DNA from: Gammaproteobacteria bacterium
GTDB lineage: Bacteria > Pseudomonadota > Gammaproteobacteria > Pseudomonadales > Azotimanducaceae
Length of the DNA stretch: 51,749 nucleotides
Assembly: GCA_026706385.1 (NCBI GenBank)
Contig: JAPOYV010000080.1
Span: 1-51,749, forward strand
Reading direction: 5' to 3'
The notes under the pieces are model-generated. The model was not told where the DNA came from and searched no databases. It was given only the letters and a program-made list of their open reading frames with translations. Positions 10,875-25,013 of the stretch are shown piece after piece (position 1 is the stretch's first letter; each line of letters begins with the position of its first letter). Both the position numbers and the translations under genes were made by a program.

Positions 10875-13505
10875 CTAGGGGTGCTCCCCGTAGTGGAACC
10901 TCAACCGCCAGCCGTTCAGCGTGCCCGTGTCGTCGTCCGCACCGTCGAACAAGGAAAGCGTCCAGTCGCCGTTGAGACCCTCGCCGTAGAACGCATTGCT
11001 GAGCAGGCGCCAGGTCAGCGGCGCGCCGGTACGATCTAGCGCCAACACGTCGTTGTAGACCGGGTTGACGACGCTGCGCGTTCCCGCAGGCGAGGTCAAT
11101 TCGATGCCCAGGTCGTGCGGAAACGGATGGTCGATACCCACCTCGAGGATCACGGCTTCGATGTTGGCGGTGGCCGACATCCCAGCTACGGTGAGCGACT
11201 GTTCGGCGCCGCCACCATCGTTGTCGGGAATCGCGACCGTGCCACCCGGTGCGTTGAACCACCCCGACCGCCGTGCCGGACCCAGCGAACCCGGCACGTA
11301 GCGACGAGCGAGCCGCCAGGCGGCGTTCGCGTGCACGCCGCCGAAGCCGTACCAGTTGTGGAACCGATACCCGGCGCCGTTCCTCACCCACCGATCCTGC
11401 ACAACGCGTGAGACGCCACCGAAGGTCGCCGTGACCGCACGCACCGACGGGTCCACCGACCGCGCGGTGTCCGCGAGGATGTGCTTCACGTCGCGCCAAG
11501 TCAGTTCCGGGTTGGCCTCCAGGAGGATCGCCACGACGCCCGCTACGTTGGGCGCGGCCGAAGACGTGCCGTTGAACAAGCTGGTGTAGTCACCGGACGG
11601 ATTCACGTCGTGCCGACCGGCGATGCGATCGCCGTACGTGACGCCGTAGCCCACATCCGAACCGGCCTGGTCCGTGGTCACCATCGCCGGCGAATAGACG
11701 CCGAACTCGCCCGCCGGCGCGCTGATCCAGAGGTTCGCCCCGGCGCTTGCATAGCTCGCGCGCCTGCCGTTGGCGTCGAGCCCGCCGACCGCGACCACGT
11801 AGGGCAGATTGTTGACCTCGTCGCCGTTGGCATTCGAGCAGCCGATCTGATCGTTCAGCGGATCATGGAGCGCGCCGCACTCGCCGAAGCCGTTCCCCGC
11901 AGCCTTCACGTAGACCGCACCGCGTTCCCCGCGCAAGCGGCGCACGCCGTAGGCGAACAAGGCCTCTTCCTCGGGTTCGGCGCTTGCTGGATAGCCAAGC
12001 GAGCCGAAGCTCATGTTGAAAACGTCCACATCGGACGAATCGGGCGCCATGAAACTCGCACCCATGGCGTCGAGGAAGACGCCCGTGTCGTAATCGAGGG
12101 CGTTCAGCATGTTGTAGCCGCGAAGCCGAGCTCCCGGAGCGACGCCACGGCCGCCGATTCCGTTGCGTGCCTCCGCCGCGATGAGGCCCGCGACGCTGGT
12201 GCCGTGATCGCCTGTCGGATGGACATTGAAAGGATCCGCCGTCTCGGCCGTCGGCCAGGCGGCCACCGCGTCGTCCGCCGCGGCCAACGGGGCGTTGAAG
12301 TTGTACGACGCGTCGGTCTCGATACTGGCTGCGAGATCCGGATGGCAGGTTTCCAGGCCGGTGTCGACGACGGCAACCTTCACACCGGCTCCGAACGGGC
12401 CGCGGGTCAGGATGACTCCCATGCGCAAGTCCTGGTTGCGCAACCCGCCGCTATCCGCGAAAGCCGTCTGGCCCGTGTTTCGCAAGTGCCACTGGTGCCG
12501 GTAAAGCGGATCCACGACGTTTGGCGATCCGCCCCGCCCGGGCTCCGTGCAGCGCTGGCGGATCGGATCCATCCCGTCGATCGTGAACCCGGCCCTGTCG
12601 CTGTTGGTGTAGCTGCGGCCGGCAAGCTCGGAACTCTGCACCGGCATCTCGGCGCGCAGGAAGTACGTGTCGGCAGCCAATGTACGCAGGCTCAACCGTA
12701 TGCGTACCGAGTAGCTTCCCTTCGGCTGCAATACCGGTACGCGACGCGACACGCGACGCAAAGCCGGCGTGAAGCCTGGGGTCGTCGCCAGGACCAGCGT
12801 CAGATTCCCGCTGGCGGTGGGGGCGGCACCCCAGTTCAAGACGTTGATTTCCGCTACGACGGCGTTCTCGTCCACGACCCGGATCCCGTCGAAAAACACC
12901 AGGAGATCCGACGCCAAGTCGGTCTTGTTCGTCGCCTTCGTAGTGGCGGCCTCAGGTCGCGGCCGCATCGGCCGTCTGACCGGCGCCTTGAACTGCACAA
13001 ACGCCTTGTCGGCGCCGGGCACGGCCTCGAGACGCCGCGCCGCCTGCGCAGGATCAATCGCGAGCGGCAGGCGAATCAAGGCGAAACCGAGATGCGGATA
13101 CGGCTTGCCGGAGATGGCACCGACTTCGCGGACGAGCGCCGGCAACTCGCCGTAGTCTTCCAACTCGACGAGAACGGTAGCGGTCAGCTCCCGGAACCGA
13201 CTCTCGTCGGGATCGAATGCGTAGCGGGTCGGTCGTCCTGCTGCTTCGGCATGGGCGATCGCCGTCCGGTTGGCGACCGTCGCCTTGTACGTGCGAATGC
13301 CGTCCTCGGTCGTGACTTCGAAGCTGACGCCGTCCGCGGAAGCGGCGCCGTCCGCGCGCGTTGGGAGGACGAGCACGCTCCCCGCAACGCTGGCCGCGCG
13401 CTGCAATTCGAAGATGGGCGTGTCGTCCGCGGCGCCGGTCGCCAAGACCGAGACGAGCGCGACCGCCGTCCCGGTGAGGACGGTGAGCAGTTTTCGAGAC
13501 TTCAT
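10875..13505 (-). CDS. Secreted subtilisin-like serine protease with P-domain
   Basis: S8 family peptidase of 876 residues with a Sec signal peptide (residues 1-25). A ~300-residue N-terminal region with propeptide- and CARDB-like beta segments precedes the catalytic domain. Triad: D381 (VAVVDTG), H434 (DHGTSVAG) and S648 (NGTSSAAP), with oxyanion N538 (KAAGNG). Several paired cysteines suit an exported protein. The C-terminus (~740-876; VGIDHPFPHDLGIELTSP, then GEGLNGDWTLSLFDG) is a proprotein-convertase P-domain, giving a kexin-like architecture. Its ATG overlaps the argA stop (ATGA, 13502-13505), so translation appears coupled to arginine biosynthesis genes. The reason for that linkage is unknown. 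Confidence 0.9.
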   Translation of the reverse strand: MKSRKLLTVLTGTAVALVSVLATGAADDTPIFELQRAASVAGSVLVLPTRADGAASADGVSFEVTTEDGIRTYKATVANRTAIAHAEAAGRPTRYAFDPDESRFRELTATVLVELEDYGELPALVREVGAISGKPYPHLGFALIRLPLAIDPAQAARRLEAVPGADKAFVQFKAPVRRPMRPRPEAATTKATNKTDLASDLLVFFDGIRVVDENAVVAEINVLNWGAAPTASGNLTLVLATTPGFTPALRRVSRRVPVLQPKGSYSVRIRLSLRTLAADTYFLRAEMPVQSSELAGRSYTNSDRAGFTIDGMDPIRQRCTEPGRGGSPNVVDPLYRHQWHLRNTGQTAFADSGGLRNQDLRMGVILTRGPFGAGVKVAVVDTGLETCHPDLAASIETDASYNFNAPLAAADDAVAAWPTAETADPFNVHPTGDHGTSVAGLIAAEARNGIGGRGVAPGARLRGYNMLNALDYDTGVFLDAMGASFMAPDSSDVDVFNMSFGSLGYPASAEPEEEALFAYGVRRLRGERGAVYVKAAGNGFGECGALHDPLNDQIGCSNANGDEVNNLPYVVAVGGLDANGRRASYASAGANLWISAPAGEFGVYSPAMVTTDQAGSDVGYGVTYGDRIAGRHDVNPSGDYTSLFNGTSSAAPNVAGVVAILLEANPELTWRDVKHILADTARSVDPSVRAVTATFGGVSRVVQDRWVRNGAGYRFHNWYGFGGVHANAAWRLARRYVPGSLGPARRSGWFNAPGGTVAIPDNDGGGAEQSLTVAGMSATANIEAVILEVGIDHPFPHDLGIELTSPAGTRSVVNPVYNDVLALDRTGAPLTWRLLSNAFYGEGLNGDWTLSLFDGADDDTGTLNGWRLRFHYGEHP

Positions 13506-14728
13506 TGGAGGTCCTTGAGGAGTACCTGGGAATTGCGGCGATAGTTGTAGAGACCTTGTCGGTTCGCCGGGAGTTCAACGACCGTCTTGATCGCGAACCC
13601 ATGCTCAACGAACCAATCCGCCGCAGTGGTCGTCAACGCGAACAGCCGGGCTACGCCCAGTTTCCGCGCCGCATCCTCGACTGCGACAAGCAGGCGCGAC
13701 CCTACCGCGTTGCCCCCCACGAGGCAGGCGAGCTCCGCATTGCCGTCACCGAGGTCGACCAAGGCGCAGCATCCTGTCAAGGCACCGTCGAGTTCCGCGA
13801 CGAAGAAGTCGGCGACATCCCGTTCGATGCGGTCCCGCGGGCGTCGCACCAGGACGCCGGAGTCCTCGAGCGGGCGGATCAGCTCGACGATGGCCCCCAC
13901 GTCTGCGGGTCTCGCACGCCGGATCACCCGGTAGTCGCCGTCGCCGACCTGCGTCCCTGCGCCCTCGGCCGTGAACAACTCCTTCAGCAGGACGCCGTCG
14001 TCGGAGAACCCCACGAGGTGGGCGCGTTCGACACCGTCTCGGCAGGCTTGCGCCATGGCGGAGAGGCGGCGGTCGGTCACGGGATCGAAGTCCCTCGCGT
14101 CGCGCATCTCCGTCAAGGCGCGCGTGGTCAGATCGCCACGTTCGTCGATCCGCGAGTCCGCGTGATAGACGATGAGCTTGTCGGCGTTCAGGTCCACCGC
14201 CACGCGAACGGCCAGCACCTCCGGCGCGATGAAATAGGTCGCGCCGGAAGCGCTGTATCCCACCGGCGGAAGCAATACCACGTTGTCCGCGTCCAGCAAC
14301 CTACGCACCACATCGACCTGTACGCGACGCGGCTTGCCCCCGCCGAGTTGGTCTACCCCGTCGACCACGCCGAGCGGTTGCGCCGTCACCAGGTTGCCGC
14401 TCACGACGCCGATGTGTCGATTCCGCAACGGGCTCTGCGGGATCCCGGTCGTGAACAGCGCCTCGAGGTTCGCCCGCACGACGTTCGCGCCTCGCTGCGC
14501 AGCCTGCAGCGCGTCAGCGTCCAGTGGCCCGTCGACCTCCGTCGTCGCTCCGTGGACAACCACCAATCGCACACCCAGGACGGTCAGTAGGGCAAGGTCA
14601 TGGACAATGTTGACGAGGTTGTCGCTGGTGAGCGCGTCCGCGCCGAGCATCACCACGAGAGTCCGCCCGCGGTGCGCGCGGATGTAGGGCGTGGAGGCAC
14701 GAAACCACTGGGCGTATGAGTCGCTCAC
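13502..14728 (-). CDS. argA: N-acetylglutamate synthase
   Basis: Amino-acid N-acetyltransferase committing glutamate to arginine synthesis. The 408-residue protein has an N-terminal amino-acid-kinase-like domain (LVVMLGADALT, then VRLVVVHGAT) and a C-terminal GNAT domain (AELACLVGGNAVGSRLL, then ARLFALTT). It is somewhat shorter than E. coli ArgA (443). The acetyl-CoA loop reads GGNAVGSRLL rather than the common RGxGxG type. GTG start at 14728, two bases after the argE stop, supports an argE-argA operon; this adjacency also occurs in other gammaproteobacteria. Likely feedback-inhibited by arginine as in the family. Confidence 0.9.
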   Translation of the reverse strand: MSDSYAQWFRASTPYIRAHRGRTLVVMLGADALTSDNLVNIVHDLALLTVLGVRLVVVHGATTEVDGPLDADALQAAQRGANVVRANLEALFTTGIPQSPLRNRHIGVVSGNLVTAQPLGVVDGVDQLGGGKPRRVQVDVVRRLLDADNVVLLPPVGYSASGATYFIAPEVLAVRVAVDLNADKLIVYHADSRIDERGDLTTRALTEMRDARDFDPVTDRRLSAMAQACRDGVERAHLVGFSDDGVLLKELFTAEGAGTQVGDGDYRVIRRARPADVGAIVELIRPLEDSGVLVRRPRDRIERDVADFFVAELDGALTGCCALVDLGDGNAELACLVGGNAVGSRLLVAVEDAARKLGVARLFALTTTAADWFVEHGFAIKTVVELPANRQGLYNYRRNSQVLLKDLQ

Positions 14729-14730
14729 AG

Positions 14731-15870
14731 CTAGCAGCAGTACTGCGTGATCAGCGTCGCCAGTGCATCTTCCATGGGCTGGATCTGCGCCGCATCGAGG
14801 TACTCGTCCGGTTGGTGCGCCTGATCGATGGAGCCTGCGCCGAACACCACGGTTTCCATCCCGAGCGCTTGGAAGAACGGTGCCTCGGTGCCAAACGCAA
14901 CCGTCCTCGCCCGTCTGCCGGAGAGCGCTTCGAGTGTCTTCACCAAAGGGCCGTCGGCCGGGGTTTCGTACGGTTGCACAGGTTGATTCAGCGCGGTGAT
15001 CGTCACTGGTGTGGCGGCGCAGGCTTCCCGCACGCGCCCACCCAGTTCGTCGAGCACGGCTGCGGTGTCCATGCCGGGCAGTACGCGCAGGTCGATCTTG
15101 AGTTCCGCGTGCCCGCAGATTCGGTTCGGGTTGTCGCCGGCGTGCAGGCAGCCGAGGTTCAGCGTGGGTACGCGGACCTCGAAGCTCGGATCCGAGTGTC
15201 GCTCCCCGAGTTCCCGCCGAAACGCGATCAACGTCCCCATCACGCGGTACATGGCGTCGAGCGCATTGTCGCCGAGCGACGGATTCGACGAGTGTCCCGA
15301 AGAGCCTTGGATGGCGATGGACGCGCTGGTGAAACCCTTGTGCGCGCGGATCGGCGTCATCCCCGTGGGCTCGCCGATGACCGCGGCCGCCGCCTTCGGC
15401 TCGCCCCGCGCTGCGAGGTATCGAGCCCCGGCGAACGTTGACTCCTCGTCGGCCGTGCCGATGATGGTGAGCGGCTTCTTGAACTTGCTATCGGCGTGGC
15501 GAGCCGCGGCCGCCAGCGCGAGCGGGAAGAAGCCCTTCATGTCGCACGTGCCCAGGCCGTAGAACCTCGCGTCGCGCTCGCTCACTGTGAACGGATCGGT
15601 TTGCCAGAGCGCCTCGTCGAACGGCACGGTGTCGGTGTGCCCGGAGAGCACCAGGCCATCGATGCCGCTGCCCCGCCGCGCGATCACGTTGCTCTTGCCG
15701 GGTTTGTTCGGGACGGGGACGACTTCGACCGCGAAGCCGAGGCCGTCGAGCCAATTCGCGAGGTGATCGACAACGGGCTGATTGCTCTGATCGATCGCCG
15801 GATCGATGCAACTCACCGAAGGCTCGCCAACGAGCGTCTTCAGCATCTCCAGGGTATCGGGCAACGACAT
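14731..15870 (-). CDS. argE: Acetylornithine deacetylase
   Basis: M20-family metallohydrolase releasing acetate from N2-acetylornithine to give ornithine. The protein has 379 residues, close to E. coli ArgE (383). Metal and catalytic residues are visible: H78 and D80 (SGHTDTVP), D110 (GTCDMKG) and E142/E143 (ADEEST), followed by IGEPTGM. The ATG at 15870 is preferred over codons 24 nt upstream because GGGAG lies about 8 nt before it. First gene of an argE-argA-protease operon on the minus strand. Confidence 0.92.
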   Translation of the reverse strand: MSLPDTLEMLKTLVGEPSVSCIDPAIDQSNQPVVDHLANWLDGLGFAVEVVPVPNKPGKSNVIARRGSGIDGLVLSGHTDTVPFDEALWQTDPFTVSERDARFYGLGTCDMKGFFPLALAAAARHADSKFKKPLTIIGTADEESTFAGARYLAARGEPKAAAAVIGEPTGMTPIRAHKGFTSASIAIQGSSGHSSNPSLGDNALDAMYRVMGTLIAFRRELGERHSDPSFEVRVPTLNLGCLHAGDNPNRICGHAELKIDLRVLPGMDTAAVLDELGGRVREACAATPVTITALNQPVQPYETPADGPLVKTLEALSGRRARTVAFGTEAPFFQALGMETVVFGAGSIDQAHQPDEYLDAAQIQPMEDALATLITQYCC

Positions 15871-15997
15871 GGCACAACTCCCGTGCAGGCGCAAGGCATT
15901 GTAAACGCCGCGCCGTCCTGTAACGGGTCAGGCGCGGCGAGCCACTCATTGGACACCGCGGGCGAACAGGCGTTCAAGCAACGCCTTGGGTCAGCAC

Positions 15998-16927
15998 CTA
16001 AGATTCGTCCGCCGCGGACTTGACCTTGGGAATGGCAAACGTCCCGCCCGGATGGGCTTGCAGCCACGGATCGTCGGCGCGGGTCAGCATCCGCAGGTAG
16101 TCCGGATCCCGGCTTCGCGCATAGGTTTCGGGCGCGACGTTGCCACGGTAGTCCTGTTGCGGAACGTAGTGCGGGCGACAATGCAGCCCATGGATGCTGA
16201 GCCGGAGTCCGGGCGTCTCCTTGCGAAATGCGCCGTGCCAGGTTGCACCGTGGAACACGACCAGCGAGCCCGCGGGCGCCTCGACGGGGACGGCCGCCTC
16301 CGCGGCCTCGGGAAGCCGTGGGGGCTCGCCGCGGCGATGACTCTCCGGCACGTAGCAGAACGCCCCGTCCTCGCGACGGTAGTCGGTCAGCAACCAGTTC
16401 ATGTTCGAGACGTGCGGTGTACGGACGGGCCACGGCGTGGGCGCACCCGTGTCCGCGTGCAACGGCGTCGTGAACAGGCCCTCGTGGCGGTCAGGCGTGC
16501 GGAACTTGACCCAGCCGTTGCTGGTGGACATGCGGTGCGTGTCCCCGAGCAGGTGGCGAAAGAAGGTCTTCTTGACCGGGTTGACGGCGATCTCCTCGAA
16601 GACACGCCCGGCCTCCGGTCCGTCCTCCTGGCCGATGTATATGAGGTGGGTGAGCAGGAACTGGCCGATCCGACCGACCGGATCTTCGAGTTCATCGAGG
16701 CAACCGACCGCGAGGTCGAACCGGGCGCCGGTCCGCTGCTCGGCCACCGCCAAGAGCGCCCTCCTGCCCCAATCGACGAAGTCCGGTCCGAATCCCGTGC
16801 GCTCGGGCGGGACGATGCACAGCCCCTGGTCATCGAGTTCGCGCACGTACTCGGCGAGCGATAGACGTTCGATCTCCGCTTCGAGCGGGGGGAGTTCCCG
16901 GGGCTTCTGCCGTCGGCGCGGAACCAT
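15998..16927 (-). CDS. Phytanoyl-CoA dioxygenase (PhyH)-like protein
   Basis: Predicted non-haem Fe(II)/2-oxoglutarate oxygenase of 309 residues. The iron facial triad is H157-x-D159 (LHADTG) and H231 (WHGAF), and R242 (LRLSIHG) is a candidate for 2-oxoglutarate binding. PhyH relatives hydroxylate lipids, amino acids or natural products, so the substrate is open. Single gene between argE and the divergent DUF945 gene. Only distantly similar, by eye, to the PhyH gene at 35393. ATG at 16927 taken as start. Confidence 0.8.
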   Translation of the reverse strand: MVPRRRQKPRELPPLEAEIERLSLAEYVRELDDQGLCIVPPERTGFGPDFVDWGRRALLAVAEQRTGARFDLAVGCLDELEDPVGRIGQFLLTHLIYIGQEDGPEAGRVFEEIAVNPVKKTFFRHLLGDTHRMSTSNGWVKFRTPDRHEGLFTTPLHADTGAPTPWPVRTPHVSNMNWLLTDYRREDGAFCYVPESHRRGEPPRLPEAAEAAVPVEAPAGSLVVFHGATWHGAFRKETPGLRLSIHGLHCRPHYVPQQDYRGNVAPETYARSRDPDYLRMLTRADDPWLQAHPGGTFAIPKVKSAADES

Positions 16928-18475: not shown

Positions 18476-20269
18476 TTGGACGCGCCAGTCACTCTCCAGC
18501 CGAGGATCGCTGCGTGGTCCTCTTTCGATGACGAATTGAGCACGCTAAACAAAAGCATCCGGAACGAACCCGAAGAGCCTGGTTCCGCGCAGGCGACGCT
18601 GAGCGTGACCGTGCAGGGCGCCGTGGTCGCCGTGATCAATACCGTCGTGATGGTCACCATGATCGTCAGGGCTTCGGACGAAGGTCAGGCGTACCTCTCG
18701 TGGGCGATCTGTTCCGCGTTGCTCATCGGTGGCGCCGTAACAGCTCTGCAGGCGTCCCGAATCGGACGTTTCGGTGCAGGACATCTCCTGTTGTGCGGTG
18801 CCGGACCCCATTTCGTCGCCATCTCGGTCGTGGCCATCAATGCGGGCGGCTGGACTACGCTCGCCAGCCTCATTGTCGTCTCTTCCCTCGTCCAGTTTGC
18901 ATTTGCCGCCTGGCTTCCGTTTTTTCGGAGGATCATCACGCCCGTCGTTTGCGGCGCATCGCTCATGCTGATCTCCATTTCGGTGATTGCCGTCGCCGTG
19001 GACAGGTTGGCGAATGTGCCCGAAGGCACGCCATTGATTGCGAGTCCGCTCGTCGTAGCAGCGACCCTCGGCACCGCAGTTGTGGTTTCTCTGAAAGGCG
19101 CAGGCGTACTGCGACTTTGGGCGCCGCTTACGGGGATCCTGGCCGGCTGTGCCGTCGCCGCGTACTTCGACCTCTACGACCTTGAGTATCTGAAACAGGT
19201 ACCGTGGGTCCAGTTGCCGGATTTCGGCGCGTGGCCCGGCGTCGGTCTGGCTTTGGGAACGGAGTTCTGGACGCTTCTGCCGACTTTCGTACTCGTGACG
19301 CTTGTCGTCGCCGTGAAGATCGGCGGCGATGGTGTCGTGATTCAGCAGGTTTCGCTACGCCGACCACGAGCCATCGACTTCCGCGTAGTGCAAGGCACTG
19401 TCAACGCGAGTGGCGTAGGAGGGCTCTTGTCCGGCTTGGCTGGGACGCCACCCACCGTGCCCTATTCGCCGTCCAGCATTTCCTTGATCAATCTGACAGG
19501 CATTGCGTTTCGCGGCATCGGCTATTGGATCAGCGGTGTACTCATCCTGCTCGCGTTCTTCCCCAAGATCACGGGCTTGTTGCTCGCCGCCCCCAGCGCC
19601 GTCGTGGCTTCCCTGCTGCTGATGGTGATGGGAATGCTCCTCGTCGAAGGCATGCGCATGCTCTTCAGGGAAGGGCTCGATCAGCGCAACACGGTGATCG
19701 TTGCGACAACCCTCTCGGTCGGGCTCGGGGTGGAGAGCCTGGACCTCTTCGGCGTGCGGGCGGATGCGCTCTGGGTCTCAATCCTCGCAAACGGCACGAC
19801 CGCTGGCATCCTGGTGATGGTCGCCCTGACTACGCTCTTGGAATTGACCAGCCCACGCAGCAAGAAGCTCGAGGTGGAACTTGCGGCATCGTCCCTCGCC
19901 AGAATCGACGCCTTTCTGCAGAACTTCGCGAACGACATCGGATGGAACGAGGGGTCGGCCAATCGGCTCCGCGCATCCGGCGAGGAGTCCTTGCAGTGTC
20001 TTCTGTCCTCGGCAACCGAGGACGATGCCGCGGATACTCGACTCATCATTGTGGTCCGCTCACAGGACGATGCCGTGGAAGTGGACTTGCTGTCCGTCTT
20101 CGAAGAACAGAACATCGAAGATCGACTCGCCTACATGAGCGAGGAAGCCGAAGTCAACGATGACCGCGAACTGTCCTTCCGACTATTGCGCCACTACGCG
20201 TCGGCGGTTCACCATAGGAAGTACCACGGCGTCGACGTCGTGACCGTGCGAGTCGAAGCGACGGGATAA
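18476..20269 (+). CDS. NCS2-type permease fused to a degenerate HATPase-like domain
   Basis: 597-residue inner-membrane protein. Residues ~45-465 carry about 12-14 hydrophobic segments. The half around GLAGTPPTVPYSPSSISLINLTG and the following FFPKITGLLLAAPSAVV resembles the core of nucleobase:cation symporter-2 (SLC23, xanthine/uracil) permeases. Residues ~470-597 are soluble and look like an RsbW/SpoIIAB-type histidine-kinase-like ATPase. However, the N-box position reads EESLQ (Asn replaced by Gln) and no DxGxG box is seen, so ATP binding is doubtful. The TTG start at 18476 is uncertain; no ATG exists before residue 59. A hairpin follows the stop. Confidence 0.75.
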   Translation: MDAPVTLQPRIAAWSSFDDELSTLNKSIRNEPEEPGSAQATLSVTVQGAVVAVINTVVMVTMIVRASDEGQAYLSWAICSALLIGGAVTALQASRIGRFGAGHLLLCGAGPHFVAISVVAINAGGWTTLASLIVVSSLVQFAFAAWLPFFRRIITPVVCGASLMLISISVIAVAVDRLANVPEGTPLIASPLVVAATLGTAVVVSLKGAGVLRLWAPLTGILAGCAVAAYFDLYDLEYLKQVPWVQLPDFGAWPGVGLALGTEFWTLLPTFVLVTLVVAVKIGGDGVVIQQVSLRRPRAIDFRVVQGTVNASGVGGLLSGLAGTPPTVPYSPSSISLINLTGIAFRGIGYWISGVLILLAFFPKITGLLLAAPSAVVASLLLMVMGMLLVEGMRMLFREGLDQRNTVIVATTLSVGLGVESLDLFGVRADALWVSILANGTTAGILVMVALTTLLELTSPRSKKLEVELAASSLARIDAFLQNFANDIGWNEGSANRLRASGEESLQCLLSSATEDDAADTRLIIVVRSQDDAVEVDLLSVFEEQNIEDRLAYMSEEAEVNDDRELSFRLLRHYASAVHHRKYHGVDVVTVRVEATG

Positions 20270-20325: not shown

Positions 20326-20613
20326 TCAAACGCCCTCGACGAGTATCACGTTCGCGTTGGCCGACCGCTCCCGGATGCCTTTAAGCTCTGTGTACTCGGG
20401 CGAACTGAGCCACGCCCGTGCCGCTCCGACATCGTCGAATTCCACCACGACCAGGCGATCCGCGGACCAACTGCCTTCGATTACCTCGAGACTGCCACCG
20501 CGCACGAGGTACCGTCCGCCGTGGGCAGCAACGGTTGCGCCGATCCGCTCCCGAAAGTCCGAGAAAGTACCTTCATCCAATACTTCATCATTGACGATCA
20601 CGTATGCCGCCAT
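20326..20613 (-). CDS. DUF1330 family protein
   Basis: Small (95 residues) protein of the dimeric alpha/beta-barrel type, DUF1330. It shows the family pattern MAAYVIVNDEVLD, YLVRGG, and a VVEFDDVGAARAWLSSPEY segment. Function unknown; the fold is shared with EthD-like and monooxygenase-like proteins. A strong AGGAGGG lies 8 nt before the ATG. It starts 46 bp after the beta-RFAP-synthase-like gene on the same strand, so it may be the third gene of that cassette. Confidence 0.85.
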   Translation of the reverse strand: MAAYVIVNDEVLDEGTFSDFRERIGATVAAHGGRYLVRGGSLEVIEGSWSADRLVVVEFDDVGAARAWLSSPEYTELKGIRERSANANVILVEGV

Positions 20614-20659
20614 GTTGTTTCCCTCCTAGTTTTGGGTTGATCCAAGGCAAAACGTCCGT

Positions 20660-21676
20660 TCAGGCCACCGATGCCAGTTGCATCCCGGAATTGTTCGCCC
20701 GAGTGCAGACGATTCGTCCCGGAGTCGCGGCCTCGTTCCTCAGCTCGCTCCGCAGGTTTGCCGACACCTCGTCATCGGAGAACTTCGTCGCATCAAAGAA
20801 ACCAAAGATGGTCGCGCCCGTCGATGAGAGTCCGCATCCGTGGATTCCGTCAGTCGCGCAAAACGCCGCCCTCACGGACCGAAGCGGTTCGATGTCGGGC
20901 CGCGCCCAGTGTCGTCGCTTCCAGCCCACATCCTGAAGAGCGCTGACGGAAGAGCCGAAGGTCTCGAGATCAAGCTCCCGCAAAGCCGGCAAAAGGAGCA
21001 TGAGGATGATGTGGGACGTCGACTGCGCCTCATCCAGCGGGATCGGCGTGTTCGCGAGCATGAAATCAAGCTCGTCGGCGCCCGATAGACCTTGGTGACG
21101 GCTCGGAATGAAGAGTGCGACCCCCCAGGTGAGGGGGAAGTCGCTGCGCATGAGGAGCGGTGGTTGACCCGCCTGCGTCGCAAAGCGGGACGGGGCGAAC
21201 GACTTTTTCTGCATCCGCACGGAGTGACCGCCATCAAGCAGAAACCCCCCACAAGTGAACGCCCTGATTCCGATTCCCGACGTCCCTCCCCGGTTGGAGA
21301 TAGCTCCCAGCTCTGACGTCGGATGGTTCAACCCGAATCGTTGGTTCAGCGCATTTAAGATTGCGAGCCTGATCTGCGTCCCAGATCCCAATCCCTGGTG
21401 TGGCGGGATCATCTGGCGGATGTGGATTTCGATGCGCGGTTCCACCTGGAGAATCTCGCTGCCCGCCGCGATTTCAGCCAAGACGATCGCCCGCTCGCTA
21501 GGGGCACCTCCTCGAACCACCGTTCGCTCGTGCGGACCAAACTCCAGTGACAAGCATGGATCTTGGATCGAAAGGCCGAGACTGCCGTCGATACGGCCAA
21601 GCTCGCCGTTCATGTCGATCAGCGTGAAGTGCAGCCGCGAGGGAGTGCTAATCCGATGAGTCAAGGTCGAGCACAT
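20660..21676 (-). CDS. Beta-ribofuranosylaminobenzene 5'-phosphate synthase-like GHMP protein
   Basis: A 338-residue GHMP-superfamily protein resembling beta-RFAP synthase, which joins PRPP to p-aminobenzoate with loss of CO2 to start tetrahydromethanopterin synthesis. The N-terminus (TPSRLHFTLIDMNG) and the phosphate-binding loop PPHQGLGSGTQ (91-101) are characteristic, followed by GGTSGIGI. The ATG at 21676 is chosen (a start 30 nt upstream is possible); it overlaps the TrpB2 3' end by 29 bp, indicating coupling. No other methanopterin or C1-transfer genes occur in the window, so the true aromatic acceptor is unknown. Confidence 0.75.
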   Translation of the reverse strand: MCSTLTHRISTPSRLHFTLIDMNGELGRIDGSLGLSIQDPCLSLEFGPHERTVVRGGAPSERAIVLAEIAAGSEILQVEPRIEIHIRQMIPPHQGLGSGTQIRLAILNALNQRFGLNHPTSELGAISNRGGTSGIGIRAFTCGGFLLDGGHSVRMQKKSFAPSRFATQAGQPPLLMRSDFPLTWGVALFIPSRHQGLSGADELDFMLANTPIPLDEAQSTSHIILMLLLPALRELDLETFGSSVSALQDVGWKRRHWARPDIEPLRSVRAAFCATDGIHGCGLSSTGATIFGFFDATKFSDDEVSANLRSELRNEAATPGRIVCTRANNSGMQLASVA

Positions 21677-22994
21677 CGGAAAATCCCTGCAGATCGAGAT
21701 AGCCATGGCCCGACAGGCAGAACACGATCACCTGCTTCTGCCCAGTTCTCGACGCATCCTTCGCTGCATCGATGGCACCCAGGACGGCATGGGCGCTTTC
21801 CGGCGCTGCAAGAACGCCTTCGGTCTTCAGGAACAGGCGTCCCGCGTCGAAGACCTCGCTCTGGCCAAAGGTCCGGGTGCCGACCACGTCGTTCTTGACC
21901 AGTGCCGAGAGTACGGGCGTCTTGCCGTGATAGCGCAATCCGCCGGAGTGGACCGGCGGCGGCACGAATCGATGGCCGAGCGTGTACATGAGGATCCGCG
22001 GTGTCAGCTCGGAGAAGTCGGCCCAGTCGTATCGGTACTCGCCCCGGCTCAACGTTGGTATCGATTCCGGCTCTATGGCGCGGAACTCGATGGGGCTGCC
22101 GCCGACTTTCTCCGGGACGAACGGCGCTATGAACCCCGTGAAATTGCTGCCTCCCCCGACACAGCCGATCATCAGGCTCGGCGAGCGATCGATCTGTTCG
22201 AGTTGCAGCTTCGTCTCCAAGCCGATGATGGATTGATGGAGAACGGCGTAGTAGGACATGCAGCCCAACGCAAGCCGTCTGCCGCGATCCTCCTTGACGA
22301 ATTCGATGGCTTCGCTCATGCCGATACCGAGACTGCCGGAATTCTCAGGGTCGTCCTTGAGGATCTCCCGTCCCGTTTTCGTCAGCCGGCTCGGCGAGGA
22401 GTAGACGTCCGCGCCCGCCATGCCCATCAGGTAGCGACGATACGGCTTCTCCTCGTAGCTCTTTCGAATCATGAACACATCGCAACCGAGTCCGAGCGTT
22501 TCGCACGCCATCGCCAGCGCCGCTCCCCACTGCCCGGCGCCCGTATCTGTGACCATGCTATGGGTCTCAGAGTTTTCTTCGCGGGCGGCGTAGTAGGCCT
22601 GAACCAAGGCCGTGTTGAACTTGTGGCTTCCCGCAGGATTGAGATCTTCGCGCTTGTAGTAGATCTCGGCAGGGGTCCCCAGATGTCTCTCGAGTGAACG
22701 GGCCCTCACCAACGGGGATGGACGGTAACGACGGTAGACGTCCGCTATGAATTCCGGGATCTCGATCCACGGATCGGTCCGGTATCTGCCTTCCTGCAGC
22801 TCGATTCGAAGACATTCGAGCGGCCACAGCCAGTCGTAGTCTTCGATTTCGACGCGTCGGTCCTCGACCGGATGCAGTGGCCTCGGAACATCGAACGGGA
22901 GTTCGGCCACCATGTTGTACCAGTTCCGGGGAAGCTGCGACTCCGGAAGGTAGATCTTGTTTTCGCTCGCTGTCACACGGTCAATCCCGGGCAC
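21648..22994 (-). CDS. TrpB2-type tryptophan synthase beta-like PLP enzyme
   Basis: Fold-type II PLP enzyme, 448 residues, of the TrpB2 class (longer N-terminus than TrpB1, not dependent on TrpA). Visible: N-terminal WYNMVAELP and RPLHP segment, PLP lysine K125 in NPAGSHKFNTAL, glycine-rich phosphate loop GCVGGGSNF, and the insert SGGLRYHGKTPVLS typical of this class. It normally condenses indole and serine. Here there is no trpA, and it overlaps a beta-RFAP-synthase-like gene, so it may serve another pathway using serine and an aromatic nucleophile. GTG at 22994, or GTG 18 nt downstream, is the start; neither has a convincing Shine-Dalgarno. Confidence 0.85.
   Translation of the reverse strand: MPGIDRVTASENKIYLPESQLPRNWYNMVAELPFDVPRPLHPVEDRRVEIEDYDWLWPLECLRIELQEGRYRTDPWIEIPEFIADVYRRYRPSPLVRARSLERHLGTPAEIYYKREDLNPAGSHKFNTALVQAYYAAREENSETHSMVTDTGAGQWGAALAMACETLGLGCDVFMIRKSYEEKPYRRYLMGMAGADVYSSPSRLTKTGREILKDDPENSGSLGIGMSEAIEFVKEDRGRRLALGCMSYYAVLHQSIIGLETKLQLEQIDRSPSLMIGCVGGGSNFTGFIAPFVPEKVGGSPIEFRAIEPESIPTLSRGEYRYDWADFSELTPRILMYTLGHRFVPPPVHSGGLRYHGKTPVLSALVKNDVVGTRTFGQSEVFDAGRLFLKTEGVLAAPESAHAVLGAIDAAKDASRTGQKQVIVFCLSGHGYLDLQGFSDVLDLDSSD

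Positions 22995-23156: not shown

Positions 23157-25013
<1,857 letters not shown>

Follow-up and report, generated by a model that had tools for sequence, protein, structure and literature searches.

The 51,749-nucleotide stretch analysed here (the window) is contig JAPOYV010000080.1 of a gammaproteobacterial genome of the family Azotimanducaceae (GCA_026706385.1). It carries a compact cassette in which a TrpB2-type pyridoxal phosphate (PLP) enzyme is coupled to a GHMP-fold protein related to beta-ribofuranosylaminobenzene 5'-phosphate (beta-RFAP) synthase and to the formycin C-glycoside synthase ForT, with a DUF1330 gene behind them and a permease gene facing them:

18476-20269, plus strand: NCS2-type (xanthine/uracil family) permease, convergent with the TrpB2-GHMP-DUF1330 cassette
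20326-20613, minus strand: DUF1330 protein of 95 amino acids, with an AGGAGG-like ribosome site ahead of its ATG
20660-21676, minus strand: beta-RFAP-synthase/ForT-like GHMP-fold protein of 338 amino acids, a probable C-ribosyltransferase as judged from its sequence, with its ATG 29 bp inside trpB2
21648-22994, minus strand: TrpB2-type PLP enzyme of 448 amino acids read from a GTG at 22994, with PLP lysine K125

The last three genes form a single minus-strand cassette with all three reading frames open at these coordinates. An earlier reading made from the letters alone (the sequence-only reading) had described a TrpB2-type enzyme with K125 overlapping by 29 bp a GHMP protein of the beta-RFAP synthase family, then DUF1330, and this was borne out by the open reading frames and by profile scores. 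TrpB2 scored 563.9 bits with NF009057, above the cut-off of 366, and 506.6 bits with TIGR01415, slightly below 518.85; the GHMP protein passed TIGR00144 (230.2 bits, cut-off 113.5) and DUF1330 scored 100.3 bits with PF07045. An alternative TrpB2 start, a GTG at 22976, gives a better match to one relative (L009), and the GHMP frame is open up to 21706, the position from which residue numbers such as His266 are counted. The overlap set by the ATG at 21676 aligns at 29 bp in 12/12 other Pseudomonadota loci, with codon 3 of the GHMP gene being TAG in L024 and L025, implying a TTG start. Compared with L018, dN/dS was approximately 0.05 for TrpB2, 0.16 for the GHMP gene, 0.01 for DUF1330 and 0.08 for the permease, with 0.09 and 0.05 for the flanking ABC-F and luciferase-like genes, so that the module genes appear to be maintained, being within range of their neighbours. 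An Rfam scan of the window gave no family at the gathering threshold.

The cassette is not peculiar to this contig; had it been, this would have told against the sequence-only reading. A scan with two short peptide patterns of a collection of 84,980 species, with one genome per species, gave 41 relatives, 15 of them 65-87% identical and 26, all archaeal, 32-44% identical; as the scan recovered three Gemmatimonadota carriers out of the eight eventually seen, the spread so measured is a lower bound. The 15 close relatives lie on contigs of metagenome-assembled genomes (11 Gammaproteobacteria, one Rhodospirillales and three Gemmatimonadota/Gemmatimonadetes) with the isolate codes COS, RHO, IRC and SB. 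These codes suggest sponge metagenomes such as those of the Coscinoderma, Rhopaloeides and Ircinia study (PMC8163846; here and below, papers with PMC numbers are cited from the parts of their text that were available), the link to sponge hosts being read from the codes. TrpB2, GHMP and DUF1330 occur in identical order in all 12 other Pseudomonadota loci fetched, and the permease stands next to DUF1330 in ten of these, co-directional rather than convergent in L022; the contig of L024 ends shortly past DUF1330 and L025 has no adjacent permease. The proteins of L022, labelled Rhodospirillales, cluster with those of Gammaproteobacteria, which makes mis-binning possible. Flanking genes change from one group of relatives to another, being common to close-relative groups (the window with L018; L020, L021, L023 and L032; L024 with L025).

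The linkage extends from gene order to co-occurrence. The GHMP profile matched 14 of the 206 genomes of the window's family, with 12 full-length matches at 603-709 bits, one match from another lineage (G424, 117 bits) and one marginal (G521); in the window's genus the module GHMP gene is present in 7/16 genomes. TrpB2 was detected with NF009057 at E <= 1e-60 in 43 of the 206, one match apiece. The same 12 GHMP carriers have a TrpB2 scoring 561-577 bits, and the 31 other genomes score differently, 29 at 659-741 bits and two with partial proteins (446.5 and 257 bits) whose per-position bits are like those of the 29. The distinct TrpB2 and the full-length GHMP gene therefore co-occur in the very same 12 of 206 genomes, a pairing beyond chance, and 11 of these 12 seem to be the same genomes that supplied the Gammaproteobacteria loci of the pattern scan, such that the two counts are not independent. 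A permease orthologue (at least 78% identical, almost full length) is found in ten of the 12, the next best permease among the family matches listed being 44% identical. Across 13 modules the distances of TrpB2 and GHMP correlate (r 0.74, reached in 0/5000 permutations). Taken as a whole the GHMP protein and TrpB2 are likely to serve one pathway. G571 also has a partial permease like that of the module (L141, 4161-5510), isolated on a 5.9-kb contig that shows no further module gene; it may be a remnant.

In Gemmatimonadota the GHMP profile matched 13 of the 64 genomes of the group searched, with eight strong matches (484-563 bits), three marginal and two, G608 (230 bits) and G607 (107 bits), of other kinds or partial. 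Permease, DUF1330 and GHMP genes stand together in 7/8 strong carriers, in two gene orders, and in the eighth the contig begins just ahead of the GHMP gene. The permease of these seven is a 51-54% identical relative of that of the window, and DUF1330 in 20 other modules is 60-99% identical to the window copy. As the Gemmatimonadota carriers are without a TrpB2 above the cut-off, the core of the module is the trio of permease, DUF1330 and GHMP protein, and TrpB2 is one among several lineage-specific additions to it. The pair that the sequence-only reading took as the unit is thus linked in Pseudomonadota without being the unit that is shared across phyla. Within reach of their contigs L029-L031 have a class III aminotransferase, a PhyH protein and a short-chain dehydrogenase/reductase as extra neighbours. 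At L161 (11956-14670), and also at L162 and L164, TrpD-like (anthranilate phosphoribosyltransferase-related) and sulfatase-like genes precede the permease and are collinear with the trio, with a 4-bp overlap of sulfatase and permease genes in each of the three; both family assignments were made on L161 alone. At L160 no extra partner was evident among five flanking proteins.

ForT is the nearest solved structure of the GHMP protein by sequence (6e-40; 28-30% identical). An AlphaFold2 model of the protein (pLDDT 90.9) retrieved three ForT entries first in a fold comparison (TM 0.82-0.86), followed by a kinase (0.63). In ForT the contacts to phosphoribosyl pyrophosphate (PRPP) include R19, H99, T106, R135 and S139, of which R19, T106 and R135 were reported as essential for PRPP binding (PMC8183095), while the alanine variant of E211 was the only one confidently inactive (PMC9832568). 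Equivalents of R19, H99, T106, R135 and S139 are conserved in 21/21 module GHMP proteins, as are those of T138, S174, E211 and K263, with S104 conserved in 20/21 (ForT numbering). The subfamily cut-off, the GHMP fold and the PRPP residues place the protein in the RFAP synthase/ForT type (TIGR00144), and it is probably a PRPP-dependent C-ribosyltransferase. In this respect the residues fit the C-ribosyl step that the sequence-only reading had proposed, for a module whose NCS2 permease (18476-20269) it had missed.

On the acceptor side of the active site the module proteins differ from known relatives. Q266 of ForT is reported to hold the retained carboxylate and S21 to bind the carboxylate of the acceptor; at both places all 21 module proteins have His, the ForT acceptor residues being thus replaced. 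The Q266 place is Glu in 21/23 archaeal enzymes, and in the bacterial tetrahydromethanopterin (H4MPT) enzymes it depends on the alignment (Gln in most in one, Ala in 4/4 in another), the module and archaeal residues being stable. At the place of T295, Thr (Thr296) is present in 21/21 module proteins, Phe in 23/23 archaeal and Trp in 4/4 bacterial H4MPT enzymes. We read this as retention of PRPP-dependent C-ribosylation with a probably altered acceptor, acids like p-aminobenzoate (pABA) still being allowed. Arg26 had been considered as a pABA-specific mark, a reading that was weakened because ForT also has the Arg, placed approximately 18 Å from PRPP in the structure as reported.

The tree of GHMP proteins (57 rows, unrooted; the partial rows L045 and L055 were dropped from it and from the residue counts but kept in the first comparison, and partial L058 was dropped throughout) gives the same picture. 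The 21 module proteins form a single clade (100/100) on a stem of 1.31, and a 97/81 branch separates them from 31 rows with the archaeal and H4MPT-cluster enzymes, leaving them on the side of ForT and a ForT-like protein of Mesorhizobium; the exact neighbour of the module clade is unsure because of the long branches. The 8 Gemmatimonadota rows group with 99/94 support and the 13 Pseudomonadota rows with only 50/42, which allows transfer between the phyla in either direction. The module proteins of the window (267.8 bits) and of L030 (286.2 bits) fall below the cut-off of 328 for the beta-RFAP synthase equivalog NF040726. Two other lineages were seen on this tree. A second RFAPS-like lineage of three rows (100/99; L146, 4170-8582; L211, 519-3760; L210, 5331-7700) has as neighbours a Ham1 and P-loop fusion in L146 and L211 and an unfused P-loop kinase-like protein in L210, with a D12 DNA adenine methylase also in L146, and may produce a C-nucleotide that is activated further. 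The Mesorhizobium plasmid protein of L142 (5980-11859) clusters with ForT (100/99) beside genes annotated as 8-oxo-dGTP diphosphatase, SAICAR synthase and PurH, and its locus resembles a rhizobial C-nucleoside cluster.

The sequence-only reading had noted no methanopterin gene at the locus, and this held when the search was widened. Azospirillum mch, mtdB, fae and two further H4MPT-cluster proteins gave no match in 21 module loci (the window, L018-L032 and L160-L164). In controls mch, mtdB and the ligase matched 3/3 bacterial H4MPT clusters and fae and the fifth query 2/3; three fhc queries had no match even in the controls, which leaves five of the eight queries as informative. At the level of genomes, where a full H4MPT gene set would have overturned that reading, MCH was found in 0/16 carriers searched (five of the eight Gemmatimonadota carriers being outside these 16), and Fae was absent from the window's own genome, the one in which it was sought (0/1). 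All four bacterial H4MPT copies of the enzyme examined lie among H4MPT genes. Membership of the methanopterin beta-RFAP synthases was rejected on gene absence from the loci and carriers searched, on the tree split and on the missed NF040726 cut-off. In common with those enzymes (TIGR00144/NF040726) the module protein has the fold family, the phosphate loop PPHQGLGSGTQ, the main PRPP residues, Asp19 and Arg26, whereas it lies outside their clade, has His266 for Glu and Thr296 for Phe/Trp and is partnered by TrpB2, DUF1330 and NCS2 genes.

The module TrpB2 is likewise set apart. It resembles TrpB2/TrpB-like enzymes (NF009057, TIGR01415; 6HUL, 6HTE, 4QYS) over its whole length, including the glycine loop, the C-terminal SGHG motif and the PLP lysine, Lys125, conserved in 13/13 module proteins, but differs in KREDLN and MSYYAV stretches, in its GHMP partner gene and in having Asp for the catalytic Glu. 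The 13 module proteins form a separate clade (100/100), that of the window being no more than 47% identical to 70 others aligned; these were drawn from 29 of the 31 ordinary TrpB2 genomes of the family (the other two being partial and without a locus), from the class genomes with matches (29 of 66 besides the window, those given loci) and from 11 of the 13 best TrpB2-like plasmid hits (H74 and H76 were not fetched). In the class-wide search 66 of 369 genomes had a match at E <= 1e-90, and the score fell from 1015 bits to 432 for the next best TrpB2. At the place of the catalytic Glu before TGAGQ, 13/13 module proteins have Asp150, with 68 Glu and 2 Gly among the 70 others. In tryptophan synthase beta the Glu at this place activates indole, and its replacement by Gly, Ala or Ser let bacterial tryptophan synthases use phenols (PMC12727527), the E105G variant being used on phenols also in PMC12909874. 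The same residue is changed in the module enzyme, the differences being that the change is natural and to Asp rather than Gly, Ala or Ser; it is compatible with a nucleophile other than indole. No trpA lies beside the module, as the sequence-only reading had stated; trpF, trpB (trpB1) and trpA are clustered on a different contig of the genome, so that tryptophan need not depend on the module TrpB2. Two TrpB-like proteins on Streptomyces plasmids (L171, 3004-4395; L179, 184-1563) are encoded beside carrier-protein genes and, judged by tree position and by there being two Gly rows, are the Gly-bearing ones; they may be natural equivalents of the engineered E105G enzyme.

The permease belongs to PF00860 (128.1 bits, cut-off 27) but scores well below the NCBIfam cut-offs for xanthine (pbuX, 148.5 of 414.15 bits) and ncs2 (138.3 of 291.8). 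Its last 148 residues gave a low-confidence model (pLDDT 68.1) resembling RsbW/SpoIIAB, which is only a lead. The solved relatives of DUF1330, 2FIU (nearest) and 3LO3, are listed without assigned function.

We propose that the module decarboxylates and C-ribosylates an aromatic acid with PRPP on the way to a product other than methanopterin, with the Pseudomonadota TrpB2 adding an alanyl group, and give this reading a probability of roughly 0.5. Gene content, conservation, co-occurrence and residues are seen in the sequence, while the reactions, their order and the parts of transport and DUF1330 are inferred. The C-ribosyltransferase would join PRPP to a carboxylic acid of aromatic or heteroaromatic type, with loss of CO2 and pyrophosphate and formation of a C-C bond to give a C-nucleotide. 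Since two residues on the acceptor side are changed in all 21 proteins, the acceptor would be bound unlike pABA in the archaeal methanopterin pathway. The permease would transport either the precursor of the ring or the end product, the small DUF1330 protein may act in tailoring or as a carrier, and lineage-specific enzymes would tailor the C-ribosyl compound. In Pseudomonadota the dedicated TrpB2 would use serine or O-phosphoserine to put an alanyl group on the same ring, either ahead of ribosylation or following it, although action of this enzyme on the ribosylated ring or its precursor is in itself a tentative suggestion. More doubtful still is a new route to C-ribosyl amino acids of aryl or heteroaryl type, in which the C-ribosyltransferase and a retuned TrpB2 would put ribose-5-phosphate and an alanyl group on one ring, the candidates for tailoring in Gemmatimonadota being other enzymes, the TrpD-like protein among them. 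As speculation, an anthranilate-type acid might be C-ribosylated at its carboxyl carbon, the ortho-amino group closing on the sugar to give a 2-substituted indole that TrpB2 would alkylate at C3.

A number of observations weigh against this proposal. TrpB2 was found above the cut-off in 0/8 Gemmatimonadota carriers, with best scores of 110-111 bits in three and 164-178 in five, and may serve another step or pathway; two of the 12 family carriers (G411 and G413) have no permease orthologue. The correlation of TrpB2 and GHMP distances could be produced by shared descent by itself. At the C-ribosyltransferase, the PRPP residues carry no information on the acceptor, Gly and Ser replace the ForT contacts S142 and V294 in the module proteins as in the aligned methanopterin enzymes, and the place of G134, where proline reduced PRPP binding, varies (Thr in 16/21). 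In addition, equivalents of Asp19 and Arg26, tied to pABA in the Methanothermobacter thermautotrophicus enzyme (PMC6787355), are conserved in 21/21, such that pABA or a near analogue stays a possible acceptor. At TrpB2, Asp retains the carboxylate of Glu and the residue alone forecasts no activity; a plant protein carrying Ala there gave no tyrosine from phenol (PMC12727527). O-phosphoserine is suggested as the donor by a reference title.

The constant partner of the GHMP gene being an NCS2 permease, of a family named for nucleobases, and no ring-building gene being recognised in the module, the trio might instead serve uptake and C-ribosylation of a nucleobase-like ring in salvage or detoxification, with the permease importing the acceptor and no product exported. 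We regard this as unlikely, the permease scoring far below the xanthine and NCS2 cut-offs, which leaves its substrate open, and its orthologue being missing in 2/12 carriers.

A pathway to a C-nucleoside antibiotic like formycin or pyrazofurin, with a ForT-type enzyme, tailoring genes and a permease for export or self-protection, would account for the position of the module clade on the ForT side of the 97/81 branch in an unrooted tree, for the shared Thr295 and for accessory genes that vary by lineage as in tailored natural products. ForT (6YQQ, 8AOZ, 8AP0) and the module proteins have in common R19, H99, T106, R135, S139, T138, S174, E211, K263 and T295. This pathway is nonetheless rather improbable: ForT is just 28-30% identical across a long stem, the S21 place is His as in methanopterin enzymes, the Gln266 place is also His, and neighbours of the formycin type, including any PurC- or PurH-like gene, were not seen among the neighbours scanned, in contrast to L142.

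Equally doubtful is that TrpB2 serves general metabolism as a tryptophan synthase or serine/threonine deaminase and is merely co-transcribed with an unrelated trio. The lack of a TrpB2 above the cut-off in the Gemmatimonadota carriers and the conserved catalytic lysine and glycine loop are in keeping with such an enzyme, while the trpF-trpB-trpA genes elsewhere, the distinct clade found in 206 genomes solely with the GHMP gene and far above the next class TrpB2, the conserved overlap and the Glu-to-Asp change in 13/13 argue for a dedicated one. That the GHMP protein is an ordinary beta-RFAP synthase, producing the precursor of methanopterin from pABA and PRPP, and has its neighbours by accident is very improbable, since against TIGR00144, Asp19, Arg26, the main PRPP residues and nearest non-module hits in the genome scan that are archaeal (32-44%) stand the missed NF040726 cut-off, the tree split, His266 and Thr296, the MCH and Fae results and the finding that 0/21 module loci have the H4MPT genes that surround the four bacterial copies.

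With regard to the proposed C-ribosylation, the enzyme type is already known and its use in this module would be new. In the literature consulted the settings of enzymes making C-nucleotides from PRPP and aromatic acids are methanopterin and the antibiotics formycin and pyrazofurin, and a further lineage outside both, with unvarying partners and two acceptor-side residues altered throughout, would point to a novel metabolite, apparently of sponge-associated bacteria. Within the open-licence PMC literature no paper joining 'ribofuranosylaminobenzene' with 'tryptophan synthase' and no comparable module were found. The module enzyme would offer a new C-glycosylation catalyst, and its TrpB2 a natural test of an altered catalytic glutamate in tryptophan synthase.

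Two wider associations in the window were considered and rejected. A larger operon with the upstream ABC-F and luciferase-like genes was set aside as their orthologues adjoin the module in L018 only; a 26% ABC match in L022 is a different protein from the window ABC-F, and upstream sequence is short in some loci. No link was found between the PhyH protein of the window (15998-16927) and those of modules L029-L031. The ABC-F protein (23157-25013, minus strand) passes the general NF000355 profile (406.6 bits, cut-off 380) and has its top bits to PRK10636, below the cut-off of that profile. On the other side of the module, a minus-strand gene at 13502-14728 encodes a protein with amino-acid-kinase and acetyltransferase domains and adjoins an M20 peptidase gene (14731-15894), forming an arginine-pathway-like pair.

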